Source: Paenibacillus sp. sptzw28 (GTDB lineage: Bacteria; Bacillota; Bacilli; Paenibacillales; Paenibacillaceae). Taken from it: 64,000 nt of DNA. Below the pieces are notes generated by a model. It was given only the letters and a program-made list of their open reading frames with translations. It was not told the DNA's origin and did not search any database. Position numbers and translations under genes: made by a program. Numbering within the stretch: the first letter of the stretch is position 1; each line of letters begins with the position of its first letter. Where the stretch lies: positions 1,631,501 to 1,695,500 of the forward strand of contig NZ_CP080545.1 in assembly GCF_019550795.1 (NCBI RefSeq), written 5' to 3'. This document shows positions 6,274 to 43,396 of the stretch, piece by piece.

Positions 6274-8709
6274 ATGAGCTTGCAAGGGACTTTGACCATA
6301 AATACGAAAGACCGTGGGGCGGCGATGGGCGACCTGTTCGGCATCTTTTTCGAAGATTTGAATCATGCGGCCGACGGCGGGCTGTATGCCGAACTCGTAC
6401 GAAACCGTTCGTTCGAATTTGGTCCCATCGATCACCCGGATTACCATTCACTGACGGCATGGGAGAAGGTGGAGCGGGGAGGCGGCGAGTGCGAGGTTCG
6501 AGTCGAAAGCGGATTACCCCTGAATAAGCAAAATAACAATTATGCGGTAATTGACATTCGGATGGCAGGTGACGGCGTTGGACTCATGAACCACGGATTT
6601 AATACCGGCATCCCGGTCAGAGAAGGAGAAACCTATGTCTTCTCCATGTATGCGCGCAGGAATAGCAGCTTCGACGTGCCAATCACCGTCACGTTGGAGG
6701 GAGTCGAAGGAAGCGTTTATTCGGAAGCGGCTATCGTTGTCGCATCGGACCAATGGACGAAATACGTAGCGAGGCTGACGGCTTCCGCTACCGATTACAG
6801 CGGACGGCTGGTTCTCACCACGAAAGGATCCGGGTTGCTCTGCCTCGACATGGTTTCTTTGTTCCCGGCACGAACGTTCCGCAATCGGCCCAACGGCCTC
6901 CGTGAGGACATTGCCACATTGCTTGCCGATCTTAGACCTAAGTTCATGCGGTTTCCGGGCGGTTGTCTCATCCATGACGGGTCGCTGAATGCAGATGACC
7001 GTGACTCGATGTACCGGTGGAAGAACACGCTCGGCGATGTCGCCGAGCGGCCTGCACGGCGAAACAATTGGCGGTACAATCAAACGTTGGGCCTTGGGTA
7101 TTACGAATATTTTCTGTTCTGCGAGGACATTGGCGCCAAACCGATTCCTGTCGTACCGGCGGGCTCCGATCCGCATCACAAGAGAAACGTGCCCTTGGAC
7201 GAGCTGCAGCCATGGATTGACGACGCGCTCGATCTGATCGAGTTTGCGAATGGGGATGCCTCGTCCCCATGGGGGGCCATTCGCGCCAAGCTGGGACATC
7301 CGGAGCCATTCGGCCTGGAGTTTATCGGCATCGGTAACGAAGAGGTCGGCGAACCGTTCTTCGAGCGGTACGCGTATTTTCATCGAGCGATCAAGGCCAA
7401 ATATCCGGCGATCAAAATCATTAATAACAGCGGTCCGTTCGCATCCGGAGAAGAGTACGAGCGCGGCTGGAGATCGGCCCGCGAGAACGGCTCCGACTTC
7501 GTGGACGAACATTATTACCAGTCCCCGGAATGGCTGCTCGCCAATCATCGCCGTTACGATTCGTTCAAGACCTACGATCCCAAAGTATTCCTTGGCGAGT
7601 ATGCTTCCTGCGGCAATACTTATTACAACGCGCTTGCGGAAGCAGCTTATATGACCGGGCTTGAACGCAATGCCCACGCAGTCGGCCTTGCCTGCTATGC
7701 GCCTTTGCTCTGTAACGTCGATTACGTGAACTGGAAGCCGGATTTGATCTGGTTCAACAATCATGACGTGTTCGGAACGGCCAACTACTATGTCCAGAAG
7801 CTCTTTATGCATCATCAGGGCGATCATGCGCTTCGGGTTCAAGCAGAAGGGTTCGAACAGCCTGTTCAGAGCGAAAGCAAACCGATTGCAGGAATGCTAG
7901 CCGTCGGAACCGAAGGCGGAACGGTCGAATATTCGCAGATTAAGCTCATCAACCATGTAACCGGGGACCTACAAGAATTTGCAGACGGGCAGTTCCTCCT
8001 TTCCGATACGGAGGAAGACCGGGCCAATGGACATGCACGGCGAATGGCAGAGCTGGAATCGATAGATAGCGAGCATTATACGCTATCGATGACGGCAAGA
8101 AGGAAAGCCTGGGGCAGAGGCTTCATGATTCACTTCGGGAAGGTCGACGATCGCAATGAGCTCCTGTGGAGAATCGGAGGATGGCATAATAATGATTCAA
8201 TAATCAGCTCTCAAATAAACGGGACAAGCTGCGTCCTTACCCATTGCCTGTTCGATGTAGAAGACGATGTGGACTATCATCTGTTGATAGAGGTTTGCGG
8301 CAGAAAAATACGGGCTTATATCGACGGGGCTCTTGTAGCCAATACGGAGGATCTGATTCCTGTCATCGAGCCGCTCTACTATTCCTCGAGCATCGAAGAG
8401 GCGACCGGCGACGTCATCCTGAAAGTGGTCAATGTGCAGGATGCGCAGGTCCGTACCGGGATTGTGCTGGAGGGACTTGGCGAGAAGGAAGAGGTAATGA
8501 TCGATATTTCGGAATTGTCCGGATATTCGCTTGAAGAAGAGAACAGCTTCGAACAACCGGAACGGATTGTGCCGGCGAACCAGACGCTTCATCTGCAAGG
8601 CAATGCGTTCGAATACGAGATTCCGAGGCATTCACTTACTGTCATGCGGGTGAAGAGATCTCTTAACGATACAGACGTAAAAGTAACCGAAAAGGGAGAA
8701 AGTCGATGA
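6274..8709 (+). CDS. GH51 alpha-L-arabinofuranosidase, first copy
   Basis: Hydrolyses terminal alpha-L-arabinofuranosyl residues from arabinan, arabinoxylan or related oligosaccharides. No signal peptide is present, so the enzyme is probably cytoplasmic. The N-terminus (GDLFGIFFEDLNHAADGGLY) is the typical GH51 opening. It is followed by an inserted carbohydrate-binding-like beta-sandwich (about 80-200), the TIM barrel and a C-terminal beta domain. The acid/base is Glu356 in GIGNEEVGEPF and the nucleophile is Glu442 in FLGEYAS. 811 residues fits the longer GH51 type with the inserted module. Its stop overlaps the next start by ATGA, so the two form an operon. A close paralogue lies at 27265-29643 on the other strand. 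Substrate preference cannot be read from sequence alone. Confidence 0.93.
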   Translation: MSLQGTLTINTKDRGAAMGDLFGIFFEDLNHAADGGLYAELVRNRSFEFGPIDHPDYHSLTAWEKVERGGGECEVRVESGLPLNKQNNNYAVIDIRMAGDGVGLMNHGFNTGIPVREGETYVFSMYARRNSSFDVPITVTLEGVEGSVYSEAAIVVASDQWTKYVARLTASATDYSGRLVLTTKGSGLLCLDMVSLFPARTFRNRPNGLREDIATLLADLRPKFMRFPGGCLIHDGSLNADDRDSMYRWKNTLGDVAERPARRNNWRYNQTLGLGYYEYFLFCEDIGAKPIPVVPAGSDPHHKRNVPLDELQPWIDDALDLIEFANGDASSPWGAIRAKLGHPEPFGLEFIGIGNEEVGEPFFERYAYFHRAIKAKYPAIKIINNSGPFASGEEYERGWRSARENGSDFVDEHYYQSPEWLLANHRRYDSFKTYDPKVFLGEYASCGNTYYNALAEAAYMTGLERNAHAVGLACYAPLLCNVDYVNWKPDLIWFNNHDVFGTANYYVQKLFMHHQGDHALRVQAEGFEQPVQSESKPIAGMLAVGTEGGTVEYSQIKLINHVTGDLQEFADGQFLLSDTEEDRANGHARRMAELESIDSEHYTLSMTARRKAWGRGFMIHFGKVDDRNELLWRIGGWHNNDSIISSQINGTSCVLTHCLFDVEDDVDYHLLIEVCGRKIRAYIDGALVANTEDLIPVIEPLYYSSSIEEATGDVILKVVNVQDAQVRTGIVLEGLGEKEEVMIDISELSGYSLEEENSFEQPERIVPANQTLHLQGNAFEYEIPRHSLTVMRVKRSLNDTDVKVTEKGESR

Positions 8710-9635
8710 GTGCATATTTATTCGTACATTTCAAAGAGAAAAAAACGCCGGACGGCGAACAGGTCTACTTTGGCTTGAGTAAGGACGGTTTCAATTGGGA
8801 ACAGGTGAATGGCGGCGAGCCTGTGTTATGGAGCGATAAAGGCGACAAGGGTGTACGGGATCACACGATAGTCCGTACCAAGTCCGGTAAATTTTATATT
8901 TTGTCTACGGACCTTAGCCTGGCGAGCTGCTTCGATACCAAGTATGAAGGTACCTGGGCAAATATTGCGCGGAACGGAAGCAAGTGTCTGGCACTCTGGG
9001 AGTCGGACGATCTCGTGAATTGGTCGGAGCAGCGAATGATCGAGCTTGGCGATGAAGATTACGGCATGCTATGGGCACCGGACGTACTGTATGATCGGAA
9101 CCGGGACGACTATGTCATTCATTGGTCATCGTCCCATGCTTCGAACAACTACGGACATAAGGCGATATTTTATACGCGAACCAAGGACTTTATACACTTC
9201 GATAAACCGCAGCTCTTATGCAGGAAAGACGGAAGCGGCATCATAGACTCGGCTATATATGAAGAGAATGGTATGTACTATCGCTTTGTGAAGCATGAGA
9301 ACCCCATTCACATCATTCTTGAGCAGGGGGAGTCGATAAGTGGCGAATACGTGGAGAACCAAGCTTTCAAAGAAGAGATGGTCAAACTCGGGTATGGTCA
9401 GTATGAGGGGCCCACTGCATTCAAGCTCCAGGATGGGCGATGGGTTCTGATGCTGGACTATTACGGTGTTCAAGGAGAAGGTCAGGGCTATGTCCCGTTT
9501 ATCGCAGACGACTTGAAGAGCGGACGCTTTATCCGTTCTGATGAGCGGTTCAGCTTTCCCTACCGCTTTAAGCATGGTACCGTGCTTGCTATTACGGCGG
9601 AGGAGTACGACCGCATTCACCGCCATTTTTCCTAG
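8706..9635 (+). CDS. GH43-type five-bladed beta-propeller glycosidase
   Basis: A 309-residue, single-domain protein without signal peptide. It carries the three acids expected of GH43: Asp52 in VRDHTIVR (base), Asp126 in WAPDV (pKa modulator) and Glu234 in YEGPTAF (acid). Repeated strand patterns such as LWESDDLVNWSE and FYTRTKDFIHF fit propeller blades. GH43 members are arabinofuranosidases, arabinanases or xylosidases. Translational coupling to the GH51 gene suggests joint removal of arabinose side chains from imported oligosaccharides. The ATG lies inside the stop of the upstream gene; AAGGGAGAAAG just before it serves as ribosome binding site. Exact specificity is not predictable here. 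Confidence 0.85.
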   Translation: MSAYLFVHFKEKKTPDGEQVYFGLSKDGFNWEQVNGGEPVLWSDKGDKGVRDHTIVRTKSGKFYILSTDLSLASCFDTKYEGTWANIARNGSKCLALWESDDLVNWSEQRMIELGDEDYGMLWAPDVLYDRNRDDYVIHWSSSHASNNYGHKAIFYTRTKDFIHFDKPQLLCRKDGSGIIDSAIYEENGMYYRFVKHENPIHIILEQGESISGEYVENQAFKEEMVKLGYGQYEGPTAFKLQDGRWVLMLDYYGVQGEGQGYVPFIADDLKSGRFIRSDERFSFPYRFKHGTVLAITAEEYDRIHRHFS

Positions 9636-9786: not shown

Positions 9787-12700
9787 ATGAGAACCCCAAA
9801 TGATAAAATGCACAAATTCGTTGCGCTGGTGGTCGCCTTGATATTGTTCATCACACCGGTATTGCCTGCGCAAGCGGCGGACAGCACCGTTACCGCAACT
9901 TCCGGTACGAACGGATTGACCTTGTACCCGTTCGATGGAAATGCCAATAGTACAGACGGGTTATACAATGGTACGGTGTCCGGCACCTCCGTCTACGGAG
10001 ACGGCAGAGTCGGGCAAGCCATTGCCCTGAACGGCACCGATTCCTATGTAACTCTTCCATCCAATCACGCACTTTCTAATTATACGGAAATTACATTATC
10101 AACCTGGGTGAATTGGAAGGGAGGCAAGGATTGGCAGCGGATCTTCGACTTCGGCACCGGCACGACCCAATACATGTTCTTAACGCCGAAAACCGGCAAT
10201 TTCATGCGGTTTGCGATCAAGAACGGCAGCAGCGAGCAGATCGTGCAGACGGCGGCGCTTCCGGCTGGCCAGTGGGTTCATGTGGCGTTGACGCTCGGGA
10301 GCGGGAAAGCGACCCTGTACGTGAACGGCGAAGCGAAATCCACCGCTAACGTGACGATCAAGCCGAGCGATTTTAAACCGAGCAAGAACTACATCGGCAA
10401 AAGCCAGTTCGCGGCCGATGCGTTGTTCGGCGGCTCGATCGACGAATTCCGCATCTATAATCGCGCCTTAAGCGCAGACGAGATTAATACGGTATACAAG
10501 GATTCCAATCTGGCAGCCACGATCGCGCAAGCTCAAAAAATCATCGACAGCGGACAGCAATATTGGTCCGACGAAACTTGGGCGAAGCTTCTGGACGTCT
10601 ACGAACGTGCGAAAGCATTGCAGGGAGATCCTGCTGCGACTCAAGCGGCAATTGATGCAATGGCGGAAGAACTGCTTGCCGCCATTCAAGGTCTTGCTGA
10701 GCCCCTGCCAAATTTCGTCAATAACACAGGTACACAGCTTGTCCATCCCGCCGTTAGCGTCGCACCTCAGGACTTGCTGCGCGTACGGCAGCATATCTTG
10801 AATAAAGATCAGCCTTGGTACGGCTATTATACGAACTTTGCATCCAGCGATTTCGCTTCCAAATCGTATGCGATCCGAAATGATAATAACCCGTCTGCCG
10901 ACTTTGATCATCTTGAACCGAGGTACAGCTACGACAGCTATAGCACCAGCCTCTTTAACAATCAGATGACGCAGGATGCCACCGCAGCGCACTATCAGGC
11001 GATCATGTATTTTATGACAGGTGATCCCGCCTATCGGGAAAAAGGTATGCGAATCGTCCTGCTGTGGGGGAGTCTGGATCCGTCCAAAGCGAAGTATGTG
11101 ACGGATGCGCATATTCATCAAGGACGGCCCGTGTACTATATGAATGCGGCCGCGGAATTGCTGCGTTATACGAGTACTGGTCATGAAGAGCTGAAATGGA
11201 AGGATGAGTATTCCCAGAAATATAGCGATAACTTTCAGAAACCGGCGCTTCGTCTCTGGTTGGAACGAAACACCAACTGGATGAATCAGCACCAAACTTC
11301 GGTTATGGGAACATTGTCCTCCTATGTTTTCATGGACAGCAAGGCGGATTATGAGCGTGTGTTAGAGTGGGCGACAGTAAACGCCAGCACTCCATCTCAA
11401 CACGCATACCATAACGGTGCGATAGCCAACGCCATGTTCGAATACTCCACGGACAGCAATGGGACTGTGCTGGACGAGCCTGTCGTGGCTGTCAAGGAAA
11501 TGGTGAGGGATCAACCGCATTCGTTCGACAACGTGGTGAACTTGTCCATTATAGCTCAAATCATAGCGGCACAAGGCACGTCACTCGATCCGGTGGGCGG
11601 GACAGCTACGACAGCCGACAATGGAAAGGACGTCTATTCCTTCTTGGACGACCGGCTTCTTAAGGGTGTCAATACCTATTATAAATACAACCTGGGATAC
11701 GCTATACCATTCAATGACGGCTTGAATAATCCGGTTAGCCCGGACAGACGAGGACGCATTGGTGCCCGCGAGGACTATTACTACATTTATAAGTATGGCA
11801 AGGGCTATGCGGATAACGATCCCGACTTTAAGTATGTAGCCGAAGCGATGAATAAGTATTGGGATATTTATGGTTTGAGAACCAGCGATTTATGGCTTTA
11901 TATTCCTGATGGCGCTTTAGGCACACCCGTACCTGCTGTTATTGCCCAAGAGAATGGGAGCACGGTTCCGTACCAGTTTGAAAAACATTTTACCGCGTTA
12001 GACAGCGGCATTGCGAGGACAAACGATTCGGTCCGCATCGAGGCCGATGAATCCGGCTCACTATTCGCTGTCCCTAGTATGGGTATCTGGCGCAATGGCA
12101 ACTTGGCGCTCCGAATCAAGAGCAATGCGATGACGACGCTGAAGTTCCAACGCGATATTGGCAAAGAGCCGTTTGCCGCGGTTCACCTGCCCGATACGGG
12201 AGGGGAATGGAAGTATGTGATCGTCAACCTGGCAAGTGTGCCTGGCACCGATTTCCAAGCAGACTCCATGATTTATTTCAATGTATTCGGCAAGACGGGG
12301 GAATACGTCGAGTTTGATCACCTATTGCTCAACAGTACAACGGTGAAAGCGCCTTACTTCAAGGGAGGCGTGAATGAGCTGCATCTTGAATCTTATATTT
12401 CTGCGCAGCTGCAATATGATTTGTCCAATTCAGCAAGCAATGCAGGCCAAAGCATAACGTATAGCGTAGTTGAAGATAGCGCCGGATTCGTGAGTAATGC
12501 CAATATTACCGTCGATAACAATGGCGTACTGTCGGCGAACATTCCGTCATCCTTCCCAAGCGGTAATTATTCCTTCTATGTGACGGCATCGAATGGTACG
12601 GCGATGAATGTACTGACGGTCACCGTCACCGTCACAGGCAGCTATAGCGAAGCGATCGAGAATGTAATCCGAACCTATGATCCTGCTCAAAAGTATGAAA

Positions 12701-15700
12701 CGGCAAGCTATACCGTATTCCGGACGAAGCATGAAGCTGCGCTGGCTCTTGTTGAATCCGGCGACGCAGCTGCCATGAATCAGGCATTGCTTGATCTGAA
12801 GGAAGCTGTGAGCGGGTTGCGCCTCTTAAATCCGTTGATAGCGGACGGAGCCCTTGATTTAACGGGGATCGCAGTGGGAGCGCCGGACAGCAGCGGCATC
12901 AATATGGGTTCGTTAGTAGATCTCCACGCTTCAGGCATTCCGATTAGATGGATTTGGGATCAGAAGCAGTTTACGATGGATTTCGGTGAAGGCTTCAAAG
13001 TAAAGCCTAACGAATTCCGGCTATTGCCCGACTCCGGATTCCCGGCACGATCAGAGGGAGCCATCATCCTGGCATCCAATGACTATACGAACTGGGTACG
13101 AATCTCTGACGATATATCGGAATATACCACGGATTGGTTCACCTATACGGTTAAAGAGGAGTACAAGAATACCGGATTCCGTTATTTCCGTATGAAGGAT
13201 GTGACCTCCGGGGTATTAAACAAGGACGATTATACGGAGGACCAACCGTTCACTATCGCTGACCTCCACATTTTTGGCGAACGGTTTGAGACGGGTAATG
13301 TGGTGAAGGATATAAGCTTGAAACTGCAATCTGCTTCGCCTGTCCAGGACATTATCGATATTCCGCCTAGAGCCGTCATAGGGGATAAGGTGATACTCAC
13401 ATTCAAAGCGGATCAACCGATCAGCAATGTGCGCGCCACCATTCAGGGCGAGGCGGTTGGCGTTACGGATAACGGGGACGGTTCCTATAACGCTGAGTAT
13501 GTTGTTCATGCCGGATCGAAGTCAGGCTACGCTGCGATTTCCATTGACTACAACTTTGCGGACGGCACGCCGGCCTATACCGTGTACAGCTATCCGGATA
13601 CATTCATTACCAATTCAAATAACGTACAAGTGTCCCAGAAAGTGTTGATTTCCGATACGTCCAATGAGATCAATGCGGCAGCCGAATCGCAAATAAGCGG
13701 CTCAGACAATACATTGGACGCGGCCGAAATCACTTATTTGTTCGATGGCAAAATATCCACCGGTCCCGATGTAAGAGCCGGCGGCAGCGGATATGGATAC
13801 TACAATTTTGATTTCGGCGCGAGCAACAGCAACAAGTTGATGCAGCTTGACCGAATCGAGATTTTGAACCGCAGCGGCTTTCCTGGCAGGGCTGGAGCGG
13901 TGAGCGTAAGCGCTTCTGCGGATGGCGTAAATTGGCGAACCATATCCGAAGTATCAAAGGGTTACAACTATGATACCTGGCAGCCGGTTAAAGTGTTGGA
14001 TCAATACAAGGATGCCGCCTTCCGATATTTCCGTATTTACGGAGGAAACTGGTTTGGGAATATCTCGGAACTGCGTATGTTCGGGAAAGTCGGCGAGGAT
14101 CTGAAGGGATACGACCCTACGTATACAATCACGACAACGTCGAGTGATCCCGCGGCAGGAACGACCTTGGTTTATGTCAATCCGAACGGCCTTCCGCCTG
14201 CCCCGGAGCCGACAGGGGATGAGGGAACCTCTCTGACGGTGCATGGCGATCAAACGGCCGTGACCGTTGTGGCGAAGCCTGCTGAAGGCTATGAATTCGT
14301 CAAATGGGTAGAGCCGACGACAACCTATGGCATGATGGCAGATTATTTATGGACGGCATACCCCGTGTTCAACCTGACAACCTATTCAGGCGGTTATCTG
14401 GGGGGAGTCAAGACCTACAATGTCGTGAGAGACTGGAATCTGAAGGCTGTCTTCAGAAAACTAAAATCATCTGATGCCGCGCTGTCCAGCTTGGCACTGA
14501 GCGAAGTATCGCTGAACCCGGTATTTCAGCAAGACGTAACAAGCTACTCAGCCAGTGTGCCTGTTGGCACATCAACCGTCAATATCACGGCGGTTGCGAG
14601 CAACGATGCGGCCGCAGTACAGATTAACGGTACTGTAGTGGAAAGCGGCAGCTCGCACAGCGTTGAACTTGCCGGTGAAAGCACCGTAGTCCGGATTTTA
14701 GTAACGGCAGAAGATGGAACAGAGAAGCAGTACGACGTCACGATCAATCAGGAAGCAGCGGCAGCGATTGATCCGGCCCAGCCGAACGGCAAGAACGGCT
14801 GGTACACGGCACCCGTTACGGTAACGCTATCGGCCTACGGAAGTGTGCAGTACAGCCTGGACGGCGGAAGCAGCTGGAACGTCTATGACACGCCTGTTGC
14901 TCTTGGTCAGGAAGGGCCGAACCAAATGCTGTATCGACCGGTAACGGTGACCGGTTCGGTCTATCCGAAATCGGTGAATGTCAAGATCGATCTGACTGCA
15001 CCGCAAATCACGATTGCCGGGGAAGCTTCGTATACCATTGATCAGACGGTCGGCATCACGTGCAGCGCGGTTGATACCGTATCCGGCGTGACCTACTCGC
15101 GGTGCGATGAACCGCTTGTGAATGTCAAGGCGTATACGCTTGAGCCGGGCGTCCATAAGGTGACGGCGGAAGCGGAAGATGCCGCGGGACATCGCGGATC
15201 GGCCGAATATTCGTATAGTATAGTTGCGACATTCGACAGCCTGTCTGCACTGACCGGTACGTTCGCGGCTGAGACCGGCGCTGAAGGTGCCAATCAAGTT
15301 GCGGCATCGCTGCAGCAGCAGCTGGAAACGGCTGAAGCGAGAGCGGCAGAAAGAAAAGGCGCGGAAGCCCGCAAACTGCTGCAAGCGTATATAACGGAAG
15401 TGAACAAGCAAAGCGGTAACGTGTTCACGGCCGGGCAGGCGGCAGTGCTGGTCCGCTGGGCGCAGTGGCTGCACGATGTGACGCCGCTGGCATCGGGAGC
15501 ACCGGGTAAACCGGTCCTGTCGGACAACAACGGATATGACACGGGATTGAAGGACGGCAGCTATACCGTCACCATGAACCTGTGGTGGGGGAACAACGGC
15601 ACCGAGTTCAAGCTGTACGAGAACGGCAAGCTGATCTCCACGCAGAAGCTGACGGACAACTCGCCGGAGGCCCAAACCGTGAAAATCGATATCACGGGTA

Positions 15701-16071
15701 AAGCGAACGGTACGTATACATACACCTGCGAACTGACGAACGTCTTCGGCACGACGGCATGCGATCCGCTTGTCGTCACCGTCACTGACGCCGCTCCGGG
15801 CAAGCCGGTCTTGTCCCATAATAACTGGGACAAAGACGGGAATTACGACGTCACGATGAACATGTGGTGGGGAACGAACGGTTCCGAATACCGCCTGTAC
15901 GAGAACGGCGTACTGATCGACACGCAGACGCTGAGCGAAGCGACGCCGAATGCCCAGAAGGCGGTCACGAATGTTACCGGCAAGGTGCCGGGGGTGTACG
16001 AGTACCGCGCCGTATTGGTCAATGCGGCGGGCGAGACTAGCAGCGAGACGGTCTCCGTTACTGTCAAGTGA
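9787..16071 (+). CDS. Giant secreted alginate-lyase-superfamily protein (LamG, lyase, discoidin-like x2, cadherin-like, OmpL47, FIMAH, ChiA-N-like x2)
   Basis: 2094 residues. The signal peptide ends near AQA (about residue 30). Modules: 40-235 LamG; 245-310 helical FIVAR-like; 318-715 alginate-lyase-superfamily (alpha/alpha) module with NWMNQHQTS (Asn500, His502) and EMVRDQPHS (Glu571, Arg574, His578); 725-860 carbohydrate-binding-like; 870-965 Ig-like; about 1020-1165 and 1290-1435 discoidin-like; 1450-1555 InlB-B-repeat-like; 1560-1655 cadherin-like beta sandwich; 1660-1745 OmpL47-like; 1815-1890 FIMAH; 1906-2003 and 2004-2094 two ChitinaseA-N-like Ig repeats ([17 protein letters not shown]). 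It probably cleaves an anionic, uronate-containing polysaccharide outside the cell by beta-elimination. The family (PL5, PL38 or other) is not settled. AGGAGG five bases before the ATG fixes the start. Confidence 0.82.
15502..16068 (+). repeat. Tandem ChiA-N-like Ig modules at the end of the giant lyase-like protein
   Basis: Two consecutive modules of about 98 and 91 residues share PGKPVLS, MNxWWGxNGxExxLYENG and a closing VTVT. Such modules occur at the ends of chitinases and mannanases. They sit after FIMAH only in this protein, which suggests later addition. Confidence 0.7.
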
Positions 16072-16139
16072 GAAAAATTGACATCCTAGAAGATGGCATT
16101 TCCGCTGCCGTTCAAGGCTACTAATGTCTTGAGGGCTTC

Positions 16140-16187
16140 AAGGGATGCTCCGATCGCGATTTTTGCATCTGGGCATCCCTTGTTTTA
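16140..16187 (+). terminator. Rho-independent terminator after 9787-16071
   Basis: AAGGGATGC (16140-16148) pairs with GCATCCCTT (16173-16181), followed by a short T-rich tail. Confidence 0.65.
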
Positions 16188-16228
16188 TAAAAGAAAACGA
16201 ACGCCTTCACGGCTATGATTTTGATGTC

Positions 16229-16239
16229 AGGGGGGTGAG
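16229..16239 (+). promoter_or_regulatory. Extended SD-like element (possible STAB-SD) in the leader of 16312-21867
   Basis: AGGGGGGTGAG lies about 75 bases before the real start, which has its own AAAGGAGG at 16294-16301. Same position and type as the element before 9787. A short frame from the ATG at 16258 ends in a TAA that directly abuts the gene's ATG. Confidence 0.4.
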
Positions 16240-16311
16240 TTTACATCGAGTTAATGAATGAATGATTTCGGTTTCAAAAGGCTCTCAAATTTGAAAGGAG
16301 GAAGTCTTTAA

Positions 16312-19300
16312 ATGAAAGGGTTTCTGCCAAAATGTAAGCGTTTATTTTCTATCGTATTTTCTCTGCTAATATTAAGCGGTGCCATACCGGATAGCAGTGT
16401 AACCGTACATGCTGCCGAAGCCTCAGCCATTGCACCCAATGCCACCTATGTTTCCACTGTGCCGACACCGCAAAATAGCGCAGTCATCAATCCGAACTAT
16501 GACCGCAGCTATGACAACTACGTGGTCAAAGGTCCGACAGGACTTGTCCACCCGGGTGTTCTGCACTCGCGGGCGGATCTGAATACCATGAGGGATATGG
16601 TTTGGCTCGGGAAAGAGCCTTGGGCGTCTGCATTCGATAAATTCAGAAAGACTCCCGAATCTTCGAAGAATGTAGTGATCTATGGGAACGGAGGAACGCA
16701 GAAGGAATTCGTTTATTCCCAAGTCTCTGACAGCAACGGGGACAAGCAATTGCGCCAGGATGCCACGACAGCCTATCAACAAGCGCTCATGTGGTACATC
16801 ACGGGGGATCAGGTTTACCTGAACAATGCCAAGAAGGTATTGGACGCGTGGGGCAATGGTCTCAAGCAATTTTTCAATACGACGGAGCCGGCCAATTGGG
16901 ATACTGTCGCACAGGTATGGGGGGCATCCAGCGTTCTCAGCTCCGGTGTAGCAGGTCAGAAGATGGCTGCCGCCGCAGAAATTCTTCTCTATACGCCAAG
17001 CTCAGGGTGGTGCCGGGACGCCCAAGGCAATATCGATTATGAAGCAAAGAAGGTCTACGATAATTTCTTCAGACTCATCTGGCAGGAAACGAACAAGTGG
17101 TACGGATTTTTCAATCAAGCGGCCGTAGGGAACATGGGGTATATGTCCATTTCCATCTTCCTGGACGATATCAACGGTTATAACGAAGCGGTGGAGCGGT
17201 TTGCCTACAATAAAAAAGCCGTAGACGACGCTAATACAACCGGAGCAAACAGCATCAATTTCTCGGTTGCCGCGATGGTATTGGATAATGGACAGATCGT
17301 CGAGATGGGACGTGACCAGCCTCATTCGGGCGTTGACGTTGCGGCGCTCGGCGCAGCGGCCCGAACCATCAATGTTCAGGGGACGAAGCTTGACCCTGTA
17401 ACCGGGGTTCCGGTTGCCGAGGGCGGGGTAGACCCCTATGAGTTCCAGAATCAAAAGCTGCTAAAGGCCTTATCTTATTATACGAAATACAATGCAGGGA
17501 ACGATGTGGACTATATTCCCAATGTCAACGGCTTGGGACAAAGGACCGGATGGTCCACCGTCAGTCCGGCGGGACGGGGAAGCGGAACGGATATCGCTTC
17601 CATCTACAATCATTATAAATATGAGAAAGGATATTCCGGCGGTATTTACGACGAATTGTACAAATATCCCGAGCTTATGATGAGCGTCGACAATCCTCAA
17701 GGCCAGTCCATCGATATGCCGGGTTTTGGCCAGCTGCTCTTTACCCCTGTGAACGGTGCCTTGGCCACGGAGCCGAAGGGCCCGCCGCAGCCTTTGCAGG
17801 AAAAGGGAAATTTATATGGTCTGTATAACCGGTACCCGTCTGTACCTTTTTCGTCCAACAACGCAGTTTGGTTTAAGAACGGCTTTGTAAAACCCGGAAT
17901 CGCCAGTTATCTGGACGAAAACGGTTTTGTCCAATACAAAGCCGAAGGGACGATGAACGGCAACTGGATCGGCTACGAAAACTTCGATTTCGGCTTGGTT
18001 CCAGCAGATACGCTCGCGTACAACTATTCCATGAACTCGTCGGCCGGGTCGACCATCAGCATGTACGTTACCGAGCCTGACGTAAAGCTTACCGACGAGA
18101 CGATGGCCCAAACAACGCCGATGGCCGTCTTCCAAATCCCCAATACAGGCTGGTGGACAATACAGAACACCCATGTTCAAAAATTCGATAACATCGGCGA
18201 TAAACTAAAAGGCAAGAAAAATCTGTATTTCAAAATTACGGGTTCCAACAACGTTTATAATTTAGCCGCCGAATCGTTCTGGTTTCAATTTTCGGGCGGA
18301 TTCGCCAAAACCGATAACAAGGCGATTGAAGCCCCTTATACGAGCAGTACAGGTTATATGAAAAACGAGGCGGCGAAAAACGTTACCTTGACAGACGTTG
18401 GTTATATCGGATATCGCAATATGAATTTTGACAGCGGAACCATGCAGATGCAGTTGAATCACATAGCCGCAGGAAGCGGCATGCTTGAAATGAGGCTTGG
18501 AGGCCCGCAGGGCCAGCTCGTCAAGACGTATCCGATTGAGGATACGACAGGCAGCACGGTGACCGCCGCGTTCGACCATCAGAATGATGAAATTATATAT
18601 GGCAATAACGGAGGCAACAACGATCTTTATTTTGTCTACAGAGGGACCGGCTCTCTGACCTTTAACAGCTTTAAATACGTAACGCCATCCTCTTCCGGAA
18701 CAGTTCAGTCGACAAAGACGCAGGGTGGAAGCTATTTTTCCGATCTGTACGGCAACGCCCAGAAAATCGGGGATAATGTCGTATTAAAAGGAGACGGCTC
18801 CGCAGTCGCATATCCTAATGCCAACATGGGGTCCAAAGGTGATGACCGGCGCTTCATGTCTTTGCGGGTGAAGAGCAACGAGCCAGTTGTCATGAAAGCC
18901 ATCGATCTTCGCAATGGAGATGCAGCCACGAATACCGTAGCTGAATTTGCTGTTCCGAATACGAACGGCGAGTTCGTAACGATCGCATACGATTTGGCGA
19001 AATCGGGTTATGCTGCGCGAGAAGGCGGGATTTTTCTCAGGCTGCAAGCAACCGGCGGAACTGCCGATGGCAGTGTGGAAGTCGATTACTTCAGTTTTGA
19101 CAATGCGGATATCCCGTTTGTCGATCTGCTGCAAGATGTATCCATCGTATCCGATCATCCGGGCAATCCTTCCATCGCAACGGCGGGAGATACCGTGACG
19201 TTATCGTTTACTGCCAGCGAACCGATCGATAGTGTTGCCGTTTATTTCGGCAATACGAAGATGAATGCCGTTTCCGCAGATGCCCGTCATTTTACCGTGA

Positions 19301-21867
19301 CGCAAAAGCTTGGGGAAATCTATACGTCTGGTAAAATCCAGTTCCGCATCGACTACAATCAAGATGCGAATTTCGGGAAATCGGTCAGAAGTACCATTGA
19401 TGGCACCTCGGTGACGATCGTGAATGAAGAAGGGCTCATCAACGATGCATTCAAGAAGCTTTCTTTGATTGATTCTACACCGGGTCGAAGCACGGATTCG
19501 ACAATTCAGATAGCGGCCTATCTGTTTGACGGGAATGCAGCCAGCTACTCCGATTTTCGCTCCGATAGCGGAGGCTGGGGCTCTTGGGTTGCATTTGACC
19601 TCGGCGATCAGGATAAAGTGCAATTAACCCAAGTCAAATTGCTTGCAAGACAAGACATTCCCGCCCGTGCGGCAGGTATTGTCATCCAGGGAACCAATCA
19701 CATCGGTTACGAGCCGTGGGAGACGTTGACCGCCCCGGCTGTAAATACGGTGAATTGGCAAACGTTAACGGTCCAGAATCCGAAAGCCTACCGTTATATC
19801 CGGATTTACAACGGGGCCCAATGGTTCGGCAATCTTGCCGAAGTCAAGTTCTATGGTACCATGATCCATACGGGTAGCCCGGTCCTTCTGGACACGGTAT
19901 CGCTGAAGTCGGATAACCCGGAGGATTCTTCCTTAGCCGTGACGGGGAATACGGTCACCCTGGATTTTGCTGCCGGTAAGGCTCTTGAGAATGTCAGGGT
20001 TTATTTCGGCGACAAATTGGTGGAGTCCACTTCCGATGACAATCTTCATTGGAAAGCCCGGTATACGATTGGAACTACTTATCAAACGGGCAAAATTCCA
20101 TTTGTGATCCTGTACGATAATGGGCCTGTCGTGACCGGTACCACGGACGGTGCGTCGGTAACGGTCATTGACCCGCTTCAGGTTGCACTCGATAAAGCGG
20201 CAAATCTTGAGGCAGGAAATTATTCTAGACTGAGCTATTATCTGTTCAACCAAGAAGTTGAACGCATCAAAGCGGAAATGACTCCGGGTTATTCTGAAAT
20301 GGAACTTGCCAAGGAGCTTTACGATGCGAAGAGCTTGCTTGCCGGCAATCCGTTGTCCCTCTATTCGTTTGAAGGAAACGCCGATAATGCATTCGGATCT
20401 GCCAACGGGACGGTTTCCGGCACCTCTTCGTACAAAGACGGGATAGTCGGGAAAGCGATCGAATTGAACGGCACCAATAGTTATGTCACGCTGCCCTCTA
20501 CGCATCCTCTGTCCGGTTACGATCAGATCACCTTGTCAACCTGGGTGTACTGGAAGGGCGGCAACGCTTGGCAGCGCATCTTCGACTTCGGCAACGGCAC
20601 GAACCAGTACATGTTCCTGACGCCGAGATCTGGCAGCAACACGCTGCGTTTCGCGATCAAGAACGGCGGCGGCGAGCAAATCGTGCAAACCTCGCAGCTT
20701 GCAGCGAATACGTGGGTTCATGTGGCGGTAACACTCGGGAACGGTACGGAGAAGCTGTATGTGAACGGTGTGGAACAGGCATCCACTAATGTCACGATCA
20801 AGCCGAGCGACTTCAAACCGAAACAAAATTATCTCGGGAAAAGCCAGTACGCCGATCCGCTGTTTGGCGGCATGCTGGACGAATTCCGTATTTATGATCA
20901 TGTATTAAGCGCTGATGAGATCCTTCAGCTAGCAAACAATACGGCGCCACAGGGGGACAATTCCTTACTGGCGTACCTGCTGGATAAAGCTGCAGCGCTT
21001 GACGCCAAGCTTTACACCGAATCGAGCTGGCAAGCAGTTGCGGCAGCCGCCCGGAACGCACAAGCATTGGCGTCGAATGCCAATCAAGCTGCCATCGACG
21101 CTTCGGCCGAACAGCTGCAGAGTGCGCTTGATGCGCTGCAGTGGATGGACGTATCCGCATCCTTGGATCCTGCGGCACCAAGCGGCAAGAACGGTTGGTA
21201 TACGTCCCCGGTCATGGTGACGCTGTCTCCCGCGTCAATCGCGGAATACAGCCTGGACGGAGGAGTCACCTGGGCAGTATACGGCGCGCCTGTCACCCTG
21301 GACCATGAGGGAACGAATCAGGTTCAGTACCGCCGTTCGATCGATCCGGGAGAAGCCAAAAAGCTGGAGATCAAGATTGACCGTACCGCACCGGTCGTTC
21401 AGATAACGGGCGCGGCGTCGTACACGATTGATCAGGATGTCGCTATTACGTGCAGCGCGACCGATGTTATTTCGAGCGTATATGGTGCGCCGTGCGGGAC
21501 GCCGCTTGTTCAAGCGAAGGCGTACACGCTGCCTGCGGGCCAGAATACGGTATCGGTTACGGCAGAGGATATGGCGGGCAATCAAACGACGGTTACCCAT
21601 ACGTTTACGGTAACGGTCACGTTTGACAGCTTGAAGAATGTGACGAACGGCTTCCTGAAGACAACAGGGAGCAAAGCTTGGGAAAAGGTAGCCGGCTCGT
21701 ACAATCACAAGCTCGATCAGGCGAAAGATGCAGCTGAAAGCGGCAAAATCGACGCGGCGAGGAGCATGATGGCTGACTATATCAAGCAAGTGACGGATCA
21801 AACCGGCAAATACTTTACGAAGGAACAAGCGGACATCCTGATCCGATGGGCTCAAATCGTGATTTAA
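16312..21867 (+). CDS. Giant secreted alginate-lyase-superfamily protein (lyase, CBM6-like, discoidin-like, LamG, OmpL47, FIMAH)
   Basis: 1851 residues with a signal peptide cleaved near VHA (about residue 34). Unlike its neighbour at 9787, the lyase module comes first: about 75-465, opening with GLVHPGVLHSRADLNTMRD and containing WYGFFNQAAVGNMGYMS and EMGRDQPHS (Glu331, Arg334, His338). Then come carbohydrate-binding-like domains (one CBM6-like, about 680-790, DVGYIGYRNMNF), an Ig-like domain, a discoidin-like domain (about 1056-1183), an Ig-like domain, a helical linker, LamG (about 1350-1543), a helical linker, OmpL47-like (about 1610-1690) and FIMAH (about 1770-1850). Probable extracellular polysaccharide lyase for an anionic polymer. 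The C-terminal third is nearly the same as in the first gene. AAAGGAGG ten bases before the ATG supports the start. Confidence 0.82.
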   Translation: MKGFLPKCKRLFSIVFSLLILSGAIPDSSVTVHAAEASAIAPNATYVSTVPTPQNSAVINPNYDRSYDNYVVKGPTGLVHPGVLHSRADLNTMRDMVWLGKEPWASAFDKFRKTPESSKNVVIYGNGGTQKEFVYSQVSDSNGDKQLRQDATTAYQQALMWYITGDQVYLNNAKKVLDAWGNGLKQFFNTTEPANWDTVAQVWGASSVLSSGVAGQKMAAAAEILLYTPSSGWCRDAQGNIDYEAKKVYDNFFRLIWQETNKWYGFFNQAAVGNMGYMSISIFLDDINGYNEAVERFAYNKKAVDDANTTGANSINFSVAAMVLDNGQIVEMGRDQPHSGVDVAALGAAARTINVQGTKLDPVTGVPVAEGGVDPYEFQNQKLLKALSYYTKYNAGNDVDYIPNVNGLGQRTGWSTVSPAGRGSGTDIASIYNHYKYEKGYSGGIYDELYKYPELMMSVDNPQGQSIDMPGFGQLLFTPVNGALATEPKGPPQPLQEKGNLYGLYNRYPSVPFSSNNAVWFKNGFVKPGIASYLDENGFVQYKAEGTMNGNWIGYENFDFGLVPADTLAYNYSMNSSAGSTISMYVTEPDVKLTDETMAQTTPMAVFQIPNTGWWTIQNTHVQKFDNIGDKLKGKKNLYFKITGSNNVYNLAAESFWFQFSGGFAKTDNKAIEAPYTSSTGYMKNEAAKNVTLTDVGYIGYRNMNFDSGTMQMQLNHIAAGSGMLEMRLGGPQGQLVKTYPIEDTTGSTVTAAFDHQNDEIIYGNNGGNNDLYFVYRGTGSLTFNSFKYVTPSSSGTVQSTKTQGGSYFSDLYGNAQKIGDNVVLKGDGSAVAYPNANMGSKGDDRRFMSLRVKSNEPVVMKAIDLRNGDAATNTVAEFAVPNTNGEFVTIAYDLAKSGYAAREGGIFLRLQATGGTADGSVEVDYFSFDNADIPFVDLLQDVSIVSDHPGNPSIATAGDTVTLSFTASEPIDSVAVYFGNTKMNAVSADARHFTVTQKLGEIYTSGKIQFRIDYNQDANFGKSVRSTIDGTSVTIVNEEGLINDAFKKLSLIDSTPGRSTDSTIQIAAYLFDGNAASYSDFRSDSGGWGSWVAFDLGDQDKVQLTQVKLLARQDIPARAAGIVIQGTNHIGYEPWETLTAPAVNTVNWQTLTVQNPKAYRYIRIYNGAQWFGNLAEVKFYGTMIHTGSPVLLDTVSLKSDNPEDSSLAVTGNTVTLDFAAGKALENVRVYFGDKLVESTSDDNLHWKARYTIGTTYQTGKIPFVILYDNGPVVTGTTDGASVTVIDPLQVALDKAANLEAGNYSRLSYYLFNQEVERIKAEMTPGYSEMELAKELYDAKSLLAGNPLSLYSFEGNADNAFGSANGTVSGTSSYKDGIVGKAIELNGTNSYVTLPSTHPLSGYDQITLSTWVYWKGGNAWQRIFDFGNGTNQYMFLTPRSGSNTLRFAIKNGGGEQIVQTSQLAANTWVHVAVTLGNGTEKLYVNGVEQASTNVTIKPSDFKPKQNYLGKSQYADPLFGGMLDEFRIYDHVLSADEILQLANNTAPQGDNSLLAYLLDKAAALDAKLYTESSWQAVAAAARNAQALASNANQAAIDASAEQLQSALDALQWMDVSASLDPAAPSGKNGWYTSPVMVTLSPASIAEYSLDGGVTWAVYGAPVTLDHEGTNQVQYRRSIDPGEAKKLEIKIDRTAPVVQITGAASYTIDQDVAITCSATDVISSVYGAPCGTPLVQAKAYTLPAGQNTVSVTAEDMAGNQTTVTHTFTVTVTFDSLKNVTNGFLKTTGSKAWEKVAGSYNHKLDQAKDAAESGKIDAARSMMADYIKQVTDQTGKYFTKEQADILIRWAQIVI

Positions 21868-21878
21868 CGTAAGTAGAG

Positions 21879-21912
21879 GAGAGGAAGGCAGCAGTGCCTT
21901 CCTCTCTATTAA
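21879..21912 (+). terminator. Terminator after 16312-21867
   Basis: A perfect 12-bp stem (21879-21890 with 21895-21906) with loop GCAG, starting 11 bases after the stop codon. The following TATTAAACC is only weakly T-rich. Confidence 0.65.
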
Positions 21913-21946
21913 ACCTATTTTCGTTTCGCTACGCATCGATCATCTT

Positions 21947-21958
21947 AAGGGAGGTGAT
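21947..21958 (+). promoter_or_regulatory. Extended SD-like element (possible STAB-SD) in the leader of 22077-25628
   Basis: AAGGGAGGTGAT lies about 120 bases before the chosen start and leads to no useful frame: the ATG at 21957 is too close and gives 12 codons. A second one, AAAGGGAGG (21996-22004), follows. This is the third lyase-like gene in the island with this arrangement. Confidence 0.4.
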
Positions 21959-22076
21959 GGACCGGCAAGCTGAAATCAGGATAAAGTCGAAATGAAAAGG
22001 GAGGATGATATTGGGCAAACGCCGACATGCTGCGGCAGGAGAAACGATGAGCATCAATAAAAAGGAGGAAAATGGA

Positions 22077-25000
22077 ATGAATGTAGTCAAGGAAAGAAAG
22101 CGCTGCCAACGGTTTTTTTTCGGAATCCTTTGTTTTATGTTGACAACGACAACCTTTTTCGGTCTGGGGAGCAGCGATACGGCGTATGCGGCGATTTCAC
22201 CGCTGATTACTTCTTACCAGCCGCAGGTCGTCAACACCGATGTGGATGTTTCCTACACGGATTCTTCCGGGAACACGATATCGGGAACCATCCATCATCC
22301 GGGTATTGCCATGAGACAGTCGGATTTGGACAATATGCGCGATCACGTAAGAGCGGGAGACGAGCCTTGGAATACGGCATTCAGTGCCTTTTCCAGCGAC
22401 TCCCAGGCCAGCAAAACGCCAAGAATCTACTATGAGGCAGGCAATGACATATTCATAAATATTCGTGGTCCTTGGGCGGAAACCGTAAATGGCGTGTATT
22501 ATTCTAATCCCAGCGATTATGTAGGGACGCGTGCCAATACCGATTCTGAAACAGCTTTCATACAGGCGATTATGTGGTATATTACGGGCGATGAAACCTA
22601 TCGTTCCAATGCCATGACGATCATAAGAAATTATTCGGCCATACAGTCTTGTGCTACCCATACGAGCTTCCGTTTCGCTACGATGACTTATTTGCTCGCG
22701 GCGGCGGCAGAAATTTTGCGCTATTCCGATACTCCAACGTCCAGTCTGGATTGGACAGAAGCGGATACGACGAATCTTACCAATGCGATGAACATTGTTA
22801 CGGTTACTTATAATCCTCATACCTTTTTTATGAACCAGCATCAGTTTACCGTAATGGGAACGATGGGAAGAGCGATCTTTACAAATAACCTGCAGCTTTA
22901 TGCGGAGGCCGTAGAAGCAGCGACAGTGAATTCCGCAGGACAAGCGGGCGGAAGAAACGGTTCGATCAAGTACGAGATGCGTTATATGACGGCCAATGAA
23001 GTAACCGGAGCCGCCTTGTCTCCTTCGGATTATCATGTGCAGTTAATGGAAATGGGCCGCGATGTGGGGCATTCCTACGGCAATGTTGGCGGACTTTCAA
23101 CACTGGCGCGAACCATCTATGCCCAAGGCACGAAGGTTGACCCTGTAAGCGGAGCGATGTCCACGGCCGCCAATGCGGTAAATCCGTTTAATTTCTTGGA
23201 CGACCGGCTGCTCGCAGGGGTCACTTACCTGCTGAAGTACCATCTGGGTTATGATGTATTGTGGACACCTGCCTACTCGGACGGAACCACATCCGGATCC
23301 GCGCATTATGATGCGATCAACGCGGACGGCCGGGGCAGAATCGATTCTTACTTTAATGTGTTATACAATTATTATAAATATATCGAAGGGCGGGATATGA
23401 CCCAGGAGAAATACAAGTACCTGGCCTATGCCTATGAAACGAGGATGCCGGAAGTAGCAGCAAAGGATTACCCGCTTGCCACTTTGCTGTACACGCCCGA
23501 TGCGGCAAAGACTGTCGGCCTTAGCAACCAAATCACGTTAGGCGGAATTACAGGGTTGACTGCAACGGCGTCAGGCTCGACGACGATCGATTTAAGCTGG
23601 ACGGCCGTATCGGGAGCACTGGGTTACAACATTTACAGATCCACAGCGGCAGACGGCACTTTTACCAAGATTAACAGCGAGCCGCTTACATCGGTCTCTT
23701 ACAGCGATACGGGGCTAACGCCCAATACGATTTACTATTATCAGGTAGGAGTAGCCGGAGGATCGACGTCGTCCGTCGTATCCGCAACAACGGGAGGAAC
23801 GGGCGTTCCTGCCTTGGATGCAAGCAGTTATGACCTGAATGTCAGTCATACGCATCAGACGGTATTAAGGGTTATTAATGCTGATAGAAGCACACAAGAC
23901 CTCACGAGCCAAGCGAGTTATGCTTCATCCAGCACAGCCGTCGCGACTGTAAATTCAGCGGGATTGGTTACCGGGATTAGCGCCGGTACAGCTACGATTA
24001 CTGCCACCTATAACGGGCAAACTTACAACGCAGCGGTAAAAGTGGTCCCGGATACCAGCCAGAAAACATGGTACAAGTTTGACGAAACAAGCGGGACAAC
24101 CGCCGCGGACTCATCAGGATACGGCAACAACGGGACCGTAAACGGCGGAAGCAATGCGACCTGGGCAACAGGCAAATACGGCAATGCAATCAGCTTTGGA
24201 GGAACGAATACGACTGCGGCCTATGTGGCGCTGCCAGGCAATCTTGTGGACAACATGAACAGCATGACATTCGCCGCCTGGGTTTATTGCAGCAATACTG
24301 CCGATGCCGTAAGCTTGTTTACGGCCGGGCCGGCGGCTGCTGCAACCCCTACGAAATATATGATGATGCTTCTGAATGGAAGCCGGTTTACGATTACCGC
24401 AAGCGGAAATATTGCGGAACAGAATATTTCACCGAGCGGCAATTTAACGGCCAATACATGGAAGCACATTGCCGTAACGCTGTCCGGCAGCACCGGGATT
24501 CTCTATATAGATGGCGTACAGGCTGCAACCAATACAGGGATGACGGTCAAACCTTCGGATTTGGCGCCGACGACCAGTGGAAACTTTATCGGAAAATCGG
24601 CATGGACAGGTGATAAATATTTAAAAGGGCAAATTGACGATTTCCGAATCTATAATCGCGCCTTAAGCGCGTCGGAAACTACGAATGTCATGAACGGACA
24701 AACGCTCGCCACCGTGACGACGGCGCCGACAGCCGTAACGGCAGCGGCGGCGGACGGCAGTTCGGTCAACCTGAGCTGGCCGGCAGTAACGGGAGCAACG
24801 GGCTATCATGTCTACGTTTCGGATTCTTTAGCGGTTAATGCCGTCTATACAAAGTCAAATAGCGATGCGATTTCAGGGACAAGCTACACCAGCCAGGGAT
24901 TAAAGGCGAATAAAACGTACTACTTTAAGGTGACCGCCGTAAATGCCACAGGCGAATCCGCCATGTCGGCCATTGCTTCAGCAGCGACCGGCGGCATAGC

Positions 25001-25628
25001 GGATACCAGCCTGATAACCTGGTATAAATTTAACCAAACAAGCGGGACTGCAGCTGCAGACTCATCCGGATATGCGAATAACGGGATATTAAATGGCGGC
25101 GCAGCTTGGACAACAGGCCAATTGGGCAATGCAGTGGATCTCGACGGAACCGATGACTATGCTTCTCTTCCTGCCGGAATCGTCTCAGGCGCTGACACGA
25201 TAACCGTTGCAGCTTGGGTTAATTTGGATACCGTTAGCAACTGGGCGCGTATTTTTGATTTCGGTTCCGGAACATCGACTTACATGTTTCTGACGCCGAG
25301 CAATGGAGCCGGCAAAATCCGTTTTGCAATCAAAAACAACGGATCTAGCGAGCAAATCATTGACGGGACGTCCGCGCTGGCGGCAGGCGGCTGGCATCAT
25401 GTCGCCGTCACATTAAATGGCGCTACCGGTATCCTCTATGTTGACGGTGCTGAAGCAGGGCGCAACAGCGCTATGACCCTTAAACCGTCCGATATGGGTG
25501 CCACCACACAAAACAGGATCGGCCGCTCCCAGTATAACGATCCATATCTCAATGGGCTTGTGGATGATTTCCGAATCTATACCCGACATCTTACTGCCGG
25601 AGAAATCGCTGCCCTTGCCGTTTCTTGA
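22077..25628 (+). CDS. Secreted alginate-lyase-superfamily protein (lyase, FnIII, Big2, LamG, FnIII, LamG)
   Basis: I chose the ATG at 22077 because AAAGGAGG (22061-22068) lies 8 bases before it; starts at 22005 or 22047 would add 24 or 10 residues. The 1183-residue product has a signal peptide ending near AYA. Modules: lyase-like about 40-460 (HPGIAMRQSDLDNMRDHV, FFMNQHQFTVMGTMG, EMGRDVGHS with Glu325, Arg328, His332); FnIII; Big2-like (SSTAVATVNSAGLVTGISAG); LamG; FnIII; LamG ending at the C-terminus. Unlike the other large proteins it has no OmpL47 or FIMAH. The EMGRD core is kept, but the RDQPH of its paralogues is RDVGH here. Likely an extracellular lyase of different specificity; family assignment within the superfamily is open. 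Confidence 0.82.
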   Translation: MNVVKERKRCQRFFFGILCFMLTTTTFFGLGSSDTAYAAISPLITSYQPQVVNTDVDVSYTDSSGNTISGTIHHPGIAMRQSDLDNMRDHVRAGDEPWNTAFSAFSSDSQASKTPRIYYEAGNDIFINIRGPWAETVNGVYYSNPSDYVGTRANTDSETAFIQAIMWYITGDETYRSNAMTIIRNYSAIQSCATHTSFRFATMTYLLAAAAEILRYSDTPTSSLDWTEADTTNLTNAMNIVTVTYNPHTFFMNQHQFTVMGTMGRAIFTNNLQLYAEAVEAATVNSAGQAGGRNGSIKYEMRYMTANEVTGAALSPSDYHVQLMEMGRDVGHSYGNVGGLSTLARTIYAQGTKVDPVSGAMSTAANAVNPFNFLDDRLLAGVTYLLKYHLGYDVLWTPAYSDGTTSGSAHYDAINADGRGRIDSYFNVLYNYYKYIEGRDMTQEKYKYLAYAYETRMPEVAAKDYPLATLLYTPDAAKTVGLSNQITLGGITGLTATASGSTTIDLSWTAVSGALGYNIYRSTAADGTFTKINSEPLTSVSYSDTGLTPNTIYYYQVGVAGGSTSSVVSATTGGTGVPALDASSYDLNVSHTHQTVLRVINADRSTQDLTSQASYASSSTAVATVNSAGLVTGISAGTATITATYNGQTYNAAVKVVPDTSQKTWYKFDETSGTTAADSSGYGNNGTVNGGSNATWATGKYGNAISFGGTNTTAAYVALPGNLVDNMNSMTFAAWVYCSNTADAVSLFTAGPAAAATPTKYMMMLLNGSRFTITASGNIAEQNISPSGNLTANTWKHIAVTLSGSTGILYIDGVQAATNTGMTVKPSDLAPTTSGNFIGKSAWTGDKYLKGQIDDFRIYNRALSASETTNVMNGQTLATVTTAPTAVTAAAADGSSVNLSWPAVTGATGYHVYVSDSLAVNAVYTKSNSDAISGTSYTSQGLKANKTYYFKVTAVNATGESAMSAIASAATGGIADTSLITWYKFNQTSGTAAADSSGYANNGILNGGAAWTTGQLGNAVDLDGTDDYASLPAGIVSGADTITVAAWVNLDTVSNWARIFDFGSGTSTYMFLTPSNGAGKIRFAIKNNGSSEQIIDGTSALAAGGWHHVAVTLNGATGILYVDGAEAGRNSAMTLKPSDMGATTQNRIGRSQYNDPYLNGLVDDFRIYTRHLTAGEIAALAVS

Positions 25629-40696: not shown

Positions 40697-40714
40697 CTGA
40701 AAAGAGGAATGAAA

Positions 40715-41797: not shown

Positions 41798-41809
41798 TAT
41801 CAATTAACT

Positions 41810-41838
41810 TCCGTCCTGCCTGCAAGAAGCAGGACGGA
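41810..41838 (+). terminator. Intercistronic hairpin before gntP
   Basis: TCCGTCCTGC (41810-41819) pairs with GCAGGACGGA (41829-41838) without a T run. Probably partial termination or message stabilisation inside the operon. Confidence 0.45.
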
Positions 41839-43319: not shown

Positions 43320-43396
43320 AATCACGGTGGTCCGCGCTCAGCGGGAGTGTTCACCGGATTGTTAGAGATATAAATAGGAGTGGAGGGGAAACCTGA

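Follow-up and report, generated by a model that had tools for sequence, protein, structure and literature searches.

The closest described systems to the proteins analysed here are the polysaccharide lyase (PL) family PL38 (BoPL38, PDB 8bdq; CUL-I; TpPL38A; Aly38A), the families PL17 and PL5 (Alg17c and A1-III), and the PL35 glycosaminoglycan lyases (8khv, 8khw). A functional analogy is possible with PL27 and PL42, which are reportedly gum arabic lyases, that is, uronate lyases on an arabinose-bearing gum; their fold is presumably different from that of the modules described below. One report describes large Paenibacillus members of PL38 as forming a distinct branch (PMC9227215), and another report terms the active-site triplet highly conserved across several toroid lyase families (PMC12088678). 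Here we analyse a window, that is, a stretch of 64,000 nucleotides corresponding to positions 1631501-1695500 of the single-contig 6.10 Mb genome of Paenibacillus sp. sptzw28, which encodes three consecutive giant proteins (W1, W2, and W3), each carrying one lyase-superfamily module, and most of a fourth giant protein (U).

On balance, we favour the reading that these giants and the arabinofuranosidase-type genes beside them constitute a polysaccharide-utilisation locus for an acidic, arabinofuranose-bearing polymer, the combination of uronate and arabinofuranose best accounting for the gene content. Sequence comparison sets the modules of W1, W2, and W3 apart as a branch of their own within a known fold, one in which the catalytic set is altered.

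Fold and catalytic positions of the modules

The original prediction described three consecutive, secreted, differently assembled giants, each with one lyase-superfamily module having an EMGRD-like core, and the results bear it out on all of these points. The open reading frames are confirmed; each giant has a signal-peptide-like N-terminus (judged by eye); and the predicted length of 1183 residues for W3 fits an in-frame ATG at codon 25 of a 1207-residue open reading frame, either start being possible. Each giant has a single module, at residues ~318-745 (W1), 78-480 (W2), and 98-500 (W3), which follows a LamG domain in W1 and is N-terminal in W2 and W3. The further domains identified with Pfam differ as well: LamG, F5/8C, cadherin-like, and ChitinaseA_N in W1; CBM6 and LamG in W2; and fn3, Big_2, and two LamG in W3; FIMAH is found in W1 and W2 only below its cut-off. 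The modules (~400 residues each) have pairwise identities of 30-31% and share five residues that are invariant in all aligned modules, so that their resemblance is not due to chance.

In the structure-based fold search proposed as a check on the original prediction, an AlphaFold2 model of the W3 module (predicted local distance difference test score, pLDDT, 91) is an (alpha/alpha) toroid about equally distant from PL17, PL5, PL35, and PL38. This supports the alginate-lyase-superfamily fold of the modules, which may represent a new branch at the level of a family. Like PL38 enzymes, the modules combine an alpha/alpha toroid with an Asn that aligns with N242 of BoPL38. Unlike PL38 enzymes, they are only marginally similar to the family in sequence (BoPL38 vs. 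module profiles, E 0.031; in a second search, E 0.0036-0.0077 over 51-56 profile positions), have NQ or NW where BoPL38 has NNHG, have an invariant His in the Tyr slot, and, in the W giants, are accompanied by many binding modules. Alg17c and A1-III are 11-13% identical to the W3 model and differ from it at catalytic positions, and PL17 has an extra beta-sheet domain that is absent from the modelled piece of W3.

Catalytic positions were compared at the level of sequence alignment. All 47 aligned modules keep Asn193, Glu265, Arg268, Asp269, and His272 (numbered as in the W3 module) without exception. The residue after the catalytic Asn is Gln in 33 of the 47, Trp in 14, and His in none, whereas in BoPL38 and 3nfv the Asn is followed by His (NNHG). 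PDB titles name mutants at His192 and Tyr246 (PL5), at His202 and Tyr258 (PL17), and at Asn242, His297, and Tyr298 (PL38), and we take His192 of PL5 and His202 of PL17 to be the residue following the catalytic Asn. The Tyr slot, likewise, is not kept: position Glu+9, which corresponds by numbering to Y298 of BoPL38, is Tyr in 13/47 modules, and the invariant module His aligns with the Tyr of E-x-x-R...Y in 3nfv, with a spacing two residues shorter. The absence of His after Asn, together with the presence of His in the Tyr slot, would place the branch outside the usual catalytic set, despite the reported conservation of the triplet in toroid families. Because two usual catalytic positions are changed, "lyase" is a provisional assignment here. 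The statement that the superfamily cleaves uronate-containing polymers holds for families such as PL5, PL17, and PL38, and its extension to this branch is putative. Membership of the modules in PL38 is uncertain, since a distinct Paenibacillus branch of that family has been reported (PMC9227215).

A hint at lyase chemistry comes from a relative of the modules in the same genome, termed type F (L012:7349-9763), which lies ~6 kb from a gene for a GH88/105 unsaturated-uronide hydrolase (L012:15830-16948), with genes for a binding protein and two permeases and one opposite-strand gene between them. A search of the fetched loci with one GH88/105 query gave a match only at this locus.

The Pfam model PF05426 (Alginate_lyase) scores 22.2 bits on W2, exactly at its curated cut-off of 22.2 bits, and has no match at E<=1 in W1 and W3; its cut-off is exceeded by the type F relative and by a relative of a further type, type E (30.5 and 45.0 bits, respectively). 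Outside the window, relatives 75-94% identical exist for every one of the modules; for W2 the close relative is one partial protein (94%), besides a paralogue in the same genome. In a tree of 57 modules, for which the tree tool flagged long branches, support is 100/100 for the W1 group and 98/89 for the W3 group. W2 falls in the other half of the tree, together with types E and F, and forms no single group with its 35-37% identical relatives (24% of bootstrap trees). Recent tandem duplication of the three giants was rejected on account of the low mutual identity and the separate places in the tree. The genome contains ten modules and one 42-residue fragment (several searches merged by hand), and type E is also represented in it. 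Paralogues of W2 and W3, 86% and 69% identical over nearly full length, lie in a second cluster near 2.06-2.10 Mb. That second island (~2049000-2105000; L051, L008, L009, L052) comprises relatives of W2 and W3, two U giants, another lyase giant, GH28 and GH43-like genes, and GH95. Among loci fetched from other genomes, one protein carries two lyase modules (L106:16248-22220), and in Paenibacillus alkalitolerans the module is present as pieces in separate open frames (L072:15934-18247).

Giant U and the gene content of the island

The features of the island, in window coordinates, are:

1..5727, + strand: giant U, C-terminal 1908 residues (of 2410); the gene starts 1506 bases upstream of the window
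6274..8709, + strand: GH51 of alpha-L-arabinofuranosidase type, with N-terminal CBM4_9, ASD1 domain, and C-terminal domain
8706..9635, + strand: GH43-like protein; nearest NCBIfam model alpha-arabinofuranosidase BAD_1527 (below cut-off)
9787..16071, + strand: open reading frame of giant W1, 2094 residues
10030..10488, + strand: LamG domain of W1; matches PDB 5hon, with 4qvs the better match
10738..12021, + strand: lyase-superfamily module of W1, core EMVRDQPH
16312..21867, + strand: open reading frame of giant W2, 1851 residues
16543..17751, + strand: lyase-superfamily module of W2, core EMGRDQPH
20467..20922, + strand: LamG domain of W2
22005..25628, + strand: open reading frame of giant W3, 1207 residues (1183 from the later ATG)
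22296..23504, + strand: lyase-superfamily module of W3, core EMGRDVGH; AlphaFold2 model, pLDDT 91
27265..29643, - strand: second GH51, 65% identical to the first
29761..30540, + strand: AraC-type regulator adjoining the island, its membership in the island uncertain

Giant U, which was absent from the view of the original prediction, lies at 1-5727 and starts upstream of the window. Its 2410 residues comprise an unclassified domain of ~870 residues followed by LamG, Ig-like, and other accessory domains. Residues 1-668 match no Pfam family at E<=0.1, and residues 1-952 match no NCBIfam model at E<=0.01; in two U paralogues (L008:3009-10100 and L009:9018-16004) the Pfam matches listed (best stretch) all lie outside the ~870-residue domain. 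No close solved structure was found for the domain (Foldseek best E 3.9e-3): the PL35 enzymes 8khv and 8khw are far beyond family distance, and U has an additional N-terminal CBM35-like domain. The U domain is ~49-60% identical to proteins of Streptomyces, Nonomuraea, and Dysgonomonas, and the nearest relatives in the named collection are from Paenibacillus. We conclude that, judged against Pfam, NCBIfam, and solved structures, U is the more novel part of the island.

U and lyase modules occur together at part of the loci. In the genome itself, three of the four U genes have a lyase module no more than 10 kb away, an outcome that random placement attains in 0.000155 of trials under a simple null in which general gene clustering is not modelled. 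For other genomes we used the best 80 of 97 U loci, which include several loci per genome and some cut by contig ends, and which therefore are not independent and do not always extend 10 kb on both sides. A module-only profile, searched in six frames at <=10 kb from the U domain, detects a lyase module in 38/80 loci (14/40 actinobacterial and 24/40 others). This count supersedes one of 28/80, obtained with a profile that contained accessory domains and with gene calls that failed in high-GC loci, and it includes the module in pieces (L072), end-cut sole modules (L104, L133), and a fusion of U and lyase module in one protein (L070:9797-17785; P. algorifonticola). Five lyases near U were typed by BLAST: that of L069 is W3-type (84%), and type E is the best match for those of L122 (82%), L084 (56%), L135 (51%), and L119 (51%). 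Among the lyases typed, the cross-phylum pairing of U and lyase is thus carried by type E, with W1-W3 paired with U in Paenibacillus; since the lyases typed at three actinobacterial loci are type E, the evidence from Streptomyces bears on a related type and not on the window's own modules.

Other neighbours recur at the 80 U loci. A tblastn search with one to five queries per family, which misses distant members, yields GH43 at up to 17 loci, GH28 at 15, GH95 at 5, GH51 at 3, and GH97 at 2. A 2-hydroxyacid dehydrogenase gene is close to U in 23/40 actinobacterial loci (e.g., L135:1670-2749), and its product could act on keto-acid products of a lyase. The Dysgonomonas locus (L114) contains GH43, GH97, U, GH28, and a SusD gene, and the module-only profile finds no lyase module there. 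In a genome-wide comparison, 231/296 genomes have a match to the U profile, a figure that is not a count of U, since fn3 domains also match this profile and scoring was limited to 2 (U) or 5 (lyase) candidates per genome; the lyase profile took in accessory domains. By hand reading of the matches listed, the U match lies outside the fn3 part in 8/296 genomes, all 8 of which are among the 66/296 with a lyase match, which is a weak indication of co-occurrence. The literature listings and passages searched, which covered few subscription journals, describe no pairing of these modules with GH51 or with U.

Upstream of U lie genes for a histidine kinase, an AraC-type response regulator, a solute-binding protein, and two permeases, and farther up, beyond these, two GH43 genes. 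The first GH51 gene and the GH43-like gene overlap by 4 bases; the gaps that follow measure 151 bases (GH43-like to W1), 240 bases (W1 to W2), and 137 bases (W2 to W3). Rfam and tRNA scans of the window gave no matches. A 429-residue beta-helix protein directly after W3 (25871-27160) shows no obvious signal peptide on inspection, and tblastn detects no relative at any of the 80 U loci; on these grounds it was excluded from the island. Elsewhere in the window, a 983-residue protein (46720-49671) shares 51% identity with W1 across 252 residues and contains stretches resembling Ig and FIMAH domains that score below the cut-offs, and positions 39851-44980 hold a gluconate-type gene set, namely an RpiR-type regulator, a 2-hydroxyacid dehydrogenase, a GntP permease, and an FGGY kinase.

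The proposed arabinofuranose link and the candidate target polymers

The original prediction counted two GH51 genes and one GH43 gene. The GH51 pair stands, both genes having ASD1 and C-terminal domains above cut-off, and the third gene qualifies only as GH43-like, being below both cut-offs (PF04616, 31.7 vs. 32.2 bits; NF052546, 159.2 vs. 500 bits, E 1.7e-46). Neither GH51 protein has a signal peptide by eye. GH51 genes also occur near U in one Streptomyces and two other Paenibacillus loci. In Streptomyces geranii (L135), genes for a binding protein and a permease are followed in succession by GH51, U, and lyase, the GH51 directly before U being distant (37-38% identity). In Paenibacillus sp. 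Soil522 (L069), two relatives of window genes, namely a GH51 truncated at the end of the locus (80% identity to the second GH51 of the window) and a GH43-like gene (67% identity), come before importer genes, U, and a giant of W3 type. At locus L122 of Paenibacillus sp. LHD-117, one stretch contains GH43-like, GH28, GH51, U, and a type E lyase with AbfB, and also a gene with an arabinofuranosidase C-terminal domain. The arabinofuranose-binding domain AbfB is present on 49 of the 120 module relatives listed (299 found; hand count), the great majority type E, and on one protein (P0023) whose module is 73% identical to that of W3. The LamG domains of the giants match PDB 5hon, named as an extracellular arabinanase (E 4.5e-10 for W1, 4.2e-12 for W2, and 2.2e-7 for W3). 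The GH51 genes near U and the AbfB fusions lend independent support to the putative arabinofuranose link.

These elements suggest a route for polymer use. Secreted U, W1, W2, and W3 (secretion as judged by eye) would hold the polymer through LamG, CBM6, and F5/8C modules, and the toroid modules would cleave it, with uronic acid residues as the points of attack and beta-elimination as the probable mechanism. An ABC importer, whose binding protein and two permeases are encoded shortly before U, would then take up the oligosaccharides, from which the GH51 and GH43-like enzymes, apparently cytoplasmic by eye, would strip arabinofuranose, in what is a presumed order of steps. The computed basis of this scheme is gene content, conservation, neighbourhood, and the fold modelled for W3, from which we infer the lyase chemistry, the substrate, and uptake.

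For the identity of the polymer, the neighbours of U are informative. GH28, which acts on galacturonate polymers, is frequent near U, and this speaks for a pectin-like target. Since the commoner neighbours of U are lyase modules (38/80), GH43 (<=17), and GH28 (15), gum arabic or an arabinogalactan is no more likely than a pectin-like galacturonate polymer. GH35, GH42, GH95, and GH97, each found in single related islands, would suit side chains of arabinogalactan or of pectin too. The gum- or arabinogalactan-like target named in the original prediction thus fits, gum arabic being possible, and shares its place with a pectin-like polymer, which fits as well.

Weighing the readings

Several observations weigh against the reading of the island as one locus for an acidic, arabinofuranose-bearing polymer. 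A single transcript is without support, as terminator and promoter scans gave no signal above chance. GH51 is rare at U loci (3/80), and a comparison with five other island regions gave no relative of it at E<=1e-8, which weakens the case for GH51 as a core partner in this type of island; the proposed uronate-arabinofuranose target is backed by AbfB fusions and by the three loci with GH51 near U, with GH51 itself not a general partner. No lyase module lies within <=10 kb in 42/80 U loci, and the typed actinobacterial lyases (three loci) and that of L122 are type E, a type not present in the window. The LamG domains of W1-W3 match 4qvs, named as an S-layer domain-containing protein, better than the arabinanase. 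No GH88/105 match falls in the window island, the closest of nine in the genome being the one near the type F relative, ~125 kb off, and the changes after the catalytic Asn and in the Tyr slot count on the same side.

One could suppose instead that the giants are PL38-like glucuronan or alginate enzymes and that GH51 and GH43 belong to a neighbouring sugar route. Characterised PL38 enzymes are active on glucuronan and alginate, and Paenibacillus algicola proteins of 1611 and 1013 residues fall in the distinct PL38 branch (PMC9227215 and PMC9029943); the module profiles, searched against PDB sequences, have BoPL38 among their closest matches, and GH51 is uncommon at related loci. The match to BoPL38 is marginal, however, even the best E value covering only a short stretch, the catalytic positions of the modules differ, and the AbfB fusions and the GH43 and GH28 neighbours indicate plant-type polymers; we consider the supposition unlikely, and plain alginate use is retained solely as a part of it, given the marginal match and the different catalytic positions. 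That two independent loci merely touch, GH51 and GH43 being common in Paenibacillus, is improbable: the genome has nine PF06964 matches (eight over 148-165 positions and one over 42), two of them in the window, and few U loci have GH51, but in another Paenibacillus the Soil522 locus brings GH51 and GH43 together with U and a lyase of W3 type, and in Streptomyces a distant GH51 stands immediately before U. Similarly improbable, in our estimate, is that the modules share the fold and are not lyases, being hydrolases, epimerases, or non-catalytic binding modules; the invariant Asn, Glu, Arg, Asp, and His speak for catalysis, an invariant His falls on the 3nfv Tyr in the alignment, and the type F relative is close to a GH88/105 gene.

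Beyond the reading of the island as a locus for an acidic, arabinofuranose-bearing polymer, we advance a more far-reaching proposal tentatively, and with less than even confidence: U and the NQ/NW...RDxxH modules may be two new, functionally coupled polysaccharide-lyase families that jointly break down a uronate polymer bearing arabinofuranose. The two would form a pair in Bacillota and in Actinomycetota, with U present also in a Bacteroidota sugar-utilisation locus, and the module His would replace the catalytic Tyr. If right, this would define a branch of lyases in which the catalytic set is altered and a widespread U domain as yet unnamed in Pfam and NCBIfam, and an acidic, arabinose-bearing polymer would be a common target of Paenibacillus and actinobacteria.

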